Shown: one piece after another, positions 25,740-30,568 of the stretch
Position numbering within the stretch: position 1 is the first letter of the stretch
Layout of the letters: the number at the start of each line of letters is the position of its first letter
Position numbers and translations under genes: made by a program
Source of the DNA: Streptomycetaceae bacterium
GTDB lineage: Bacteria; Actinomycetota; Actinomycetes; Nanopelagicales; Nanopelagicaceae
NCBI GenBank assembly: GCA_007280125.1
Contig: QYPT01000012.1
Coordinates: 1 to 34,532, forward strand
Direction of reading: 5' to 3'
Length of the DNA stretch: 34,532 nucleotides
The notes under the pieces: model-generated
The model's database searches: none
What the model saw: only the letters and a program-made list of their open reading frames with translations
What the model was told of the DNA's origin: nothing

Positions 25740-26240
25740 TTACTTCTTCTTCTTTACAACCTTCTTTACTGCCTTCTTAGGGGCTGCTTTCTTTACAACC
25801 TTCTTTGCTGCCTTCTTAGGGGCTGCTTTCTTTACAACCTTCTTTGCTGCCTTCTTAGGGGCTGCTTTCTTTACAACCTTCTTTGCTGCCTTCTTAGGGG
25901 CTGCCTTTACTACAGGCTTTGCAACAACCTTAGGAGCTGGCTTTGGGGCTGGCTCAAGTTTGCGAGCGCCAGAAATAACTTCCTTAAGTCCTTTTGCAGG
26001 AAGGAAACGTGGCTTCTTGCTTGCCTTGATCTGAATGGTTTCGCCAGTGAAAGGGTTACGACCCTTACGTGCTTTGCGATCTACCTTCTTGAACTTACCG
26101 AAATCATTGATCATTACATCTTCACCCTTAGCCATGGTGCGAGTAATGGTGTCGAAAACGATATCTACAGCATGAGCTGCATCTTTCTTGCTGTCGTTGA
26201 AGTGTGGGGCCAACGCGGCAATGAATTGGGCCTTGTTCAT
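25740..26240 (-). CDS. hup: HU-family nucleoid protein with Lys/Ala/Pro-rich tandem-repeat C-terminal tail
   Basis: MNKAQFIAALAPHFNDSKKDAAHAVDIVFDTITRTMAKGEDVMINDFGKFKKVDRKARKGRNPFTGETIQIKASKKPRF; tail KKAAKKVVKKAAP repeats. ATG at 26240 has AAGGGG upstream; the tracked start at 26315 adds a non-HU N-terminus. Confidence 0.95.
   Translation of the reverse strand: MNKAQFIAALAPHFNDSKKDAAHAVDIVFDTITRTMAKGEDVMINDFGKFKKVDRKARKGRNPFTGETIQIKASKKPRFLPAKGLKEVISGARKLEPAPKPAPKVVAKPVVKAAPKKAAKKVVKKAAPKKAAKKVVKKAAPKKAAKKVVKKAAPKKAVKKVVKKKK
25752..25907 (-). repeat. Four tandem copies of a 39-bp unit encoding the HU tail
   Basis: ctttacaaccttctttgctgccttcttaggggctgcttt repeated in frame at 25752, 25791, 25830 and 25869 with one or two mismatches. 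Confidence 0.93.
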
Positions 26241-26429
26241 GGAAATCCCCTTATGTACGCGTAAAAAGTTAGGCTTTTGCCTACCTGTTAGAAATTTACG
26301 CAGTAAAAAGCGCATAGTCCAACACTTTCGCCGCGTGTCGCGCGTTTTTATTTCACATCGTGCTATTAGAAAGTAAAAGCACTAGCAAAAAAACCCTTAT
26401 TTCACGCTGGAAATTCGCTCTTAATCTCT

Positions 26430-28526: not shown

Positions 28527-29243
28527 GTGGACAAGAAGAATAGCGGAGTTGGCGTATTAGACAAAGCCGTCGCAATTTTATCTACCCTTGAATCAGGACC
28601 GCACTCCTTGGCAGAACTCGTAGCAGCCACCGGAATCGCCCGTCCAACCGCCCACCGCCTTGCTGTAGCGCTTGAATTTCATCGCCTTGTAACTCGCGAT
28701 CTCCACGGACGATTTGTCTTAGGTCTTCGATCTGGCGAATTAGCAGCAGCAGCTGGCGAGGATCGTCTCCTCGCCGTTGCAGCACCTGCACTTGCCGCGC
28801 TGCGCGATGCAACAGGTGAAAGTGCGCAGTTGTATCGCCGCCAAGGCGATGTCCGCATTTGTGTCGCGGTTGCCGAACGTTTATCTGGTCTTAGGGATTC
28901 AGTACCAGTGGGATCCGCTCTCACTATGCAAGCCGGATCTGGTGCACAAATTCTTCTCGCCTGGGAAGATTCCGAACGCATTCATAAAGGCCTAACAAAT
29001 GCTCGATTTACTGCGGCGCAATTATCGGCAGTGCGTCGTCGCGGTTGGGCACAAAGTGTTGGAGAGCGCGAAGCAGGTGTTGCATCCGTATCTGCGCCAG
29101 TGCGCGGTCCCAACAATAAAGTTATTGCAGCAGTTGGTATCAGTGGTCCAATGGAACGCCTTGGTCGCCAACCTGGACGTCTCCATGCAGCCGCAGTTGC
29201 AGCAACGGCTGCGCGGCTTTCAGAACATATCGCTAACTCTTAG
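28527..29243 (+). CDS. IclR-family transcriptional regulator (NdgR/LtbR-like, divergent from leuCD)
   Basis: 238 aa; N-terminal [49 protein letters not shown] and IclR effector domain; divergent from leuC. Confidence 0.93.
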
Positions 29244-29338
29244 CTCGATAGCAGAATAAGTTAGACGTTTTCTATAGAGCATTTGACTTGCAGACTGTAA
29301 ATTACCCAGAGTTAGCTTTTCCTAGATAACCTTTCGGT

Positions 29339-30100
29339 ATGAGAAAAACAATTACTGCCCAAAATCTACGCAAAACAAACATCCTGGCAGGTTTTCTTCA
29401 CCTAGGACAGATGATTGCCGTGTTGGCTCTAAGCACTGACTTTTCCCTACCGATTACGGCAACATACATGTCGGGACCGCCGGGATCATCATTTGCCTCA
29501 CCGGTAGTTCTGTTCAAAACTCCTATAGGCCTCACAGTTGCAATCTTCTTGGGCCTATCAGCATTAGCGCATTTCATTGTCGCAAGTCCCAAGTTTTTCC
29601 CACGCTATAGCGCAGGGCTCTTGGAGAAAAGGAATTATTTCCGCTGGGTTGAATATGCAATTAGCTCATCGGTGATGATTGTTTTGATTGCTCAAATTAC
29701 TGGCGTAACCGAAATCGCCGCGATCGTTTCCCTTTTCGGCGTCAATGCTTCAATGATTCTCTTTGGCTGGTTGCAGGAAAAGTATGAGAATCCTGGAAGC
29801 GGTGGATGGATTCCCTTTATATTTGGATGCATAGCTGGCATCGTTCCGTGGATTGCATTGTTCTTCTACGTTTTCTCCATTGGCGGCCCAGGCGGCACAT
29901 CGGCTCCAGGTTTCGTCTACGGAATTGTCTTCTCGATCTTCTTACTCTTTAACTCATTTGCACTCGTGCAATGGCTGCAATACAAAAGAGTTAGCAGGTG
30001 GAACGACTATCTTCGTGGTGAGCGAACCTATATAACTCTTTCATTGGTAGCAAAATCCTTGCTAGCTTGGCAAATATTCGCAAACACACTTATTCCTTGA
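29339..30100 (+). CDS. Heliorhodopsin (inverted-topology retinal protein)
   Basis: 253 aa, 7 TM. Family motifs: AGFLHLGQMIAVLAL, ATYMSGPPGSSFASPVVL, FRWVEYAISSSVMIVLIAQI, GVNASMILFGWLQEKYE, FGCIAGIVPWIALFFYV, PGFVYGIVFSIFLLFNSFALVQWLQYK, YLRGERTYITLSLVAKSLLAWQIFANTLIP. K239, E105, H21 and H78 are at the expected family positions. Confidence 0.96.
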   Translation: MRKTITAQNLRKTNILAGFLHLGQMIAVLALSTDFSLPITATYMSGPPGSSFASPVVLFKTPIGLTVAIFLGLSALAHFIVASPKFFPRYSAGLLEKRNYFRWVEYAISSSVMIVLIAQITGVTEIAAIVSLFGVNASMILFGWLQEKYENPGSGGWIPFIFGCIAGIVPWIALFFYVFSIGGPGGTSAPGFVYGIVFSIFLLFNSFALVQWLQYKRVSRWNDYLRGERTYITLSLVAKSLLAWQIFANTLIP

Positions 30101-30568
30101 TTACGAAGCGGCAATAACCTTTTCGATCTGACCTGAATGATCCTTAGGGTGATTTGTGTAGCCCTTAAGCCAGCGAGCAATTGTGTACTCGCCTGCTTCT
30201 GAATGAACGCCATGTCGATCAAGATCTGCCAGAGACAATCTCTTAATGATGTCTAACGATCCTGCGCGAACGGCTTTATAGACGGCTAATGAATTCTCAA
30301 TCGGTAATTCGGTGTATCCCAAAATGGCACTCTCAGACCAAGCACCCTCGTCATATCCTTGAATAGATGAACCGAGAGGTTCGGCAACGAGGCGACGAAG
30401 TCGTGCATAGGACTGCGCCTCACTATCGGCGAGGTGGTGAATTACTTGGCGTGGAGTCCACTCCCCCGGCATGCTCTTATCAAAATCGGCGGGTGAAAGT
30501 TTTGCAACGAGGTCGGTGAAATATTTAGTAGCGGCTTCGTATTCATTTGCATAATCAATGATTTCCAT
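30101..30568 (-). CDS. DinB-like (YfiT/BstA-type) four-helix putative metal-dependent protein
   Basis: 155 aa; PGEWTPRQVIHHLADSEAQSYARLR and C-terminal NHPKDHSGQIEKV His motifs. Confidence 0.82.
   Translation of the reverse strand: MEIIDYANEYEAATKYFTDLVAKLSPADFDKSMPGEWTPRQVIHHLADSEAQSYARLRRLVAEPLGSSIQGYDEGAWSESAILGYTELPIENSLAVYKAVRAGSLDIIKRLSLADLDRHGVHSEAGEYTIARWLKGYTNHPKDHSGQIEKVIAAS

Follow-up and report, generated by a model that had tools for sequence, protein, structure and literature searches.

A complete heliorhodopsin gene with an altered intracellular loop 3 and a probable leaderless promoter at a variable site in a Nanopelagicales genome

Among the closest described systems, heliorhodopsin (HeR) HeR-48C12 has been solved repeatedly (PDB 6su3, 6su4, 6uh3, 9ljj), and AbHeR of Actinobacteria bacterium IMCC26103 (L067) has been studied for its function. 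Ion pumping was not seen for AbHeR, and the lysines K216, K217 and K220 of its intracellular loop 3 are required for binding glutamine synthetase (GS), whose gene adjoins that of AbHeR in an operon described, by prediction, as having a single promoter (PMC9529153). Co-transcripts of HeR and GS have also been detected in strand-specific metatranscriptomes (PMC8612252). The family is not uniformly non-transporting, as proton transport is reported for the viral heliorhodopsin V2HeR3 (PMC9448325). Here, we describe the HeR gene found in a 34,532-nucleotide stretch of DNA from a member of the Nanopelagicales (hereafter the window), and we compare it with these proteins and with the nearly identical HeR of isolate UFOp-RH-20apr16-193 (L002, genome G019).

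The gene occupies positions 29339..30100 of the + strand and translates into 253 amino acids followed by a stop codon, so that it is complete, as a preliminary description had claimed. It matched Pfam PF18761 with an E value of 4.2e-97 (324.7 bits against a cut-off of 26.7, covering model positions 1-242 of 242) and the HeR equivalog NCBIfam NF038020 with 339.1 bits against a cut-off of 100, and at the sequence level these scores exclude chance as the source of the family assignment. A profile search for type-1 rhodopsins (PF01036) gave no match in this ORF or elsewhere in the genome. The alignment to the crystallised HeR-48C12 (5e-105, about 64% identity; sequences of 6su3/9ljj) has no gap, with residue 8 pairing with residue 10 of 48C12 and so on to 253 and 255, which bears out the two-residue offset and the lack of large indels expected earlier. 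The motif FRWVEY places the counterion at E105 (codon 29651..29653, +), the TM3 glutamate equivalent to E107 of 48C12, and SLVAKS places S235 and the Schiff-base lysine K239 (codon 30053..30055, +). E105 and K239, together with H21 and H78, stand on the translation where the preliminary description had put them, and these four residues and S235 are invariant across 40 aligned relatives. An AlphaFold model built from 40 related sequences (mean pLDDT 85.5) contains seven long TM helices, with K239 in TM7 and an SxxxK motif (S235-x3-K239) within the helix spanning residues 224-251. The ten best PDB fold matches are all heliorhodopsins, led by 6su3 (TM 0.95, rmsd 1.1), and type-1 rhodopsin folds reach a TM of only about 0.6, in agreement with the earlier view that this is not a type-1 proton pump. 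Lysines and arginines over the loops number 12 on the N-terminus side versus 1 on the opposite side, a count from which the N-terminus is predicted to lie inside the cell, the inverted topology found across the family. We also considered a foreign base composition and rejected it, as the GC content of the gene (0.455 vs 0.484 for the window) is like that of other HeRs. Its sequence, fold and key residues all mark the gene as a complete, ordinary heliorhodopsin.

Such genes are common in this clade. One scan of genome contigs returned 417 relatives, of which the best 80 are 73-98% identical, come nearly all from freshwater actinobacterial assemblies and include Ca. Planktophila and IMCC26103, and the family was present in 15 of 41 sampled genomes. 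Judging by these relatives, too, the organism of the window most likely belongs to the Nanopelagicales. One related genome, G008, carries two HeRs about 8.5 kb apart (L122 6323-7081 and 15563-16315), 84% and 38% identical to the window HeR. In the tree, the window HeR groups first with that of L002 (support 99/92). Both belong to a six-member clade (100/98), which also holds those of G009 and G020 and stands apart from both sets of GS-linked HeR genes. The high value first placed on the gene was not upheld, since several HeRs have been solved or functionally studied and no informative conserved neighbour was found; as a single gene, it adds little to a family already well sampled and solved.

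The gene order in the window is leuD-leuC-iclR-HeR-dinB-tRNA-Glu-YCII-tRNA-Gln-gltX. Elsewhere in the window, positions 25740-26315 (-) encode an HU-type DNA-binding protein with a C-terminal lysine/alanine/proline repeat tail (KKAAPKKAAKKVV), which we take to resemble actinobacterial HupB. The IclR-family regulator (28527..29243, +; Pfam IclR_C and HTH_IclR) precedes HeR on the same strand at a distance of 95 bp, and a DinB_2-superfamily gene (30101..30568, -; Pfam PF12867, 5e-17) follows it immediately. This arrangement, with the dinB adjacency recurring in L002, could suggest a local operon in which HeR acts on the IclR or DinB-like protein, but dinB is convergent, and in relatives this site is either empty or filled by different genes (L107, L114 and L116). 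In G010, the stop codons of iclR and dinB are about 3 bp apart and the site is empty; in G009, the gap is ~5.7 kb (L107 1787-7537) and includes two response regulators and a histidine kinase; in G007, it holds a FUSC/aromatic exporter-like gene, and G008 has other cargo again. Among the best 80 of the 417 relatives, HeR is never next to iclR, L002 is alone in having dinB directly adjoining HeR, and no conserved partner gene was found in the neighbourhoods. A permease is the 5' neighbour in G019, and relatives whose iclR has no HeR next to it still encode a 99% identical IclR. We therefore consider a local operon very unlikely and reject IclR and DinB as dedicated HeR partners, as their adjacency is not conserved.

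G009 and G013 are close relatives of the window genome (LeuC 96%, IclR 99%), but their HeRs are just 85% and 74% identical; that of G009 lies at a clearly different place, and that of G013 is on a short contig without the window neighbours, with neither dinB nor gltX seen in the stretch that follows the G013 iclR. A TspO/MBR gene stands divergent beside HeR in G009 and G020 (L124 414-875, PF03073; L125 2686-3147, a close homologue). As a HeR neighbour, TspO/MBR is real in a few related genomes only and absent from the window, and we set it aside. Homology between the window and G019 ends at 29312, 27 bp before the ATG (blastn: L136 3265-3701 = window 29312-29748), so that the two 98% identical HeRs share a 27-bp leader (29312..29338, +) upstream of which G019 has the permease and an amidase rather than iclR, a comparison that joins two contigs overlapping by 348 bp at 98.6% and could involve a strain mixture. 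As the simplest reading, we infer either that a variable site took up HeR or that species exchanged the gene. The chromosomal context, which had been called clear, is thus weaker than first described: the contig is 1 of 128 in an assembly that is 86% complete and 3.6% contaminated, and the context differs from that of other HeRs.

Intracellular loop 3 of the protein, K216-R217-V218-S219-R220 (29984..29998, +), deviates from the clade consensus KKVGK. The window HeR departs from other aligned HeRs at 3 of the 147 columns that are >90% conserved in them, and all three lie here (K217R, G219S and K220R). R217 and R220 occur together only in the window and L002 HeRs. The lysines needed for GS binding in AbHeR raise the possibility that the window HeR likewise regulates GS specifically, acting in trans on the GS encoded on contig C15. 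This GS is about 86% identical to AbGS, and positive charge is retained at 216, 217 and 220 (K, R, R). However, the window HeR falls outside the GS-linked group of Cho et al. 2022, being flanked by iclR and dinB with the GS genes on other contigs, and the C15 gene adjoins cysK/cysE-like genes (judged from their sequences). Moreover, lysines 216, 217 and 220 are kept in 66, 59 and 65 of 67 HeRs without an adjacent GS, so they are no mark of GS binding; likewise, co-transcribed and lone HeRs have been reported to show similar loop conservation, with no difference (PMC11109279). The restriction of the R217 and R220 combination to two HeRs also speaks against this explanation, which we regard as unlikely, and we reject the idea that these lysines distinguish GS-linked HeRs. 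Because they are equally conserved without GS adjacency, loop 3 is more plausibly a general output surface than a site specific to GS. The persistence, far from GS, of charges proposed for GS binding bears on the open question of HeR function.

Upstream of the gene lies a -10-like box, TAACCT, at -12..-7 from the HeR ATG (29327..29332, +). A TAnnnT box at -12 or -13 was found in 79 of 84 distinct HeR upstream regions (71% at -12..-7 and 21% at -13..-8), which have little else in common, versus about 29% of 399 control ORFs from the same loci (24% and 5% at these positions, and about 1.6% at other offsets), and Shine-Dalgarno-like motifs were found in 3 of the 84 versus 19% of controls, where the HeR sequences are related by descent and the control start sites were picked naively. 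This geometry and the near absence of Shine-Dalgarno motifs point to leaderless mRNA, and the box is probably the -10 element of a leaderless promoter from which transcription would start at the start codon. Leaderless genes seem to be common in this clade, with HeR nearly always one of them. The box is also present in 22 of 22 GS-linked HeRs; given the HeR-GS co-transcripts observed (PMC8612252), read-through and a private HeR promoter may coexist there. Among the papers covered by a full-text search, none combined "leaderless" and "heliorhodopsin". Tentatively, and at slightly worse than even odds, we propose that HeR in freshwater Nanopelagicales is a self-contained relocating unit, consisting of the gene and a minimal leaderless promoter with its start at the ATG, which would settle at differing sites, the GS operon published as "single-promoter" among them, and whose signalling partner need not adjoin it. 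That GS-adjacent HeRs have their own -10-like box is a caution against inferring partners from neighbours.

As to retinal, the preliminary description had named carotenoid cleavage and crt genes as those to look for. The crt genes are present: on contig C5, crtI- and crtE-like genes (judged from their sequences) lie next to those for phytoene synthase and two lycopene-cyclase half-domains, arranged as crtE-crtI-crtB with divergent lycopene-cyclase halves (C5 12000-31000, L104), and the same region holds a second carotenoid cluster with a PF04240 carotenoid biosynthesis protein, a CrtI-like oxidoreductase and a glycosyltransferase. However, we found no BCD/Blh, RPE65-type oxygenase or type-1 rhodopsin in this 86% complete genome, an absence that is provisional. 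The same searches gave matches in relatives, so the search models work. HeR without any of the three occurs in seven genomes of the genus, the window's included, and relatives at 98% completeness (G002, G009) show the same absence. It might be argued that the opsin is non-functional in the cell since retinal is not made, as the lack of a detected Blh or RPE65-type enzyme would allow. Against this, neither the reading frame nor any photochemical residue is disrupted, the gene's conservation across the clade suggests that it is used, and a bacterium without known retinal-synthesis genes is reported to build functional rhodopsins (PMC7734400). We find a non-functional opsin very unlikely. With carotenoid genes present and these enzymes undetected, retinal is probably imported from outside, a source also proposed for other freshwater actinobacteria that lack blh (PMC12422013).

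We therefore favor, at a probability of roughly three in four, a non-pumping light sensor that acts via its cytoplasmic loops on partners encoded elsewhere. Its family, predicted fold and key residues are directly supported, and E105, S109, F204, F207, Q211, S235 and K239, the residues named in AbHeR, are identical in the window HeR. With the N-terminus inside the cell, as the positive-inside topology predicts, K239 would bind retinal acquired from outside, and E105 would serve as the counterion. Light would isomerise the retinal, and a slow photocycle would reshape the cytoplasmic loops, mainly loop 3, where the changed residues are observed; the reshaped loops might then modulate a soluble or membrane partner encoded elsewhere. 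Ion pumping would be absent, and transcription would start from the leaderless promoter suggested by the -10-like box seen upstream.

Compared with HeR-48C12, which it matches over residues 8-253 and in all photochemical residues, the window HeR is two residues shorter at the N-terminus and has KRVSRWND in loop 3 where 48C12 has KGKGKWSN. AbHeR is closer, at 75% identity, with the same numbering (E105, K239) and the same pocket residues, but it carries K, G and K where the window HeR has R217, S219 and R220, and it adjoins GS whereas the window HeR lies between iclR and dinB. Closest of all is the HeR of isolate UFOp-RH-20apr16-193, which shares both R217 and R220 and a downstream dinB but keeps G219 and has an amino-acid permease and an amidase upstream in place of iclR.
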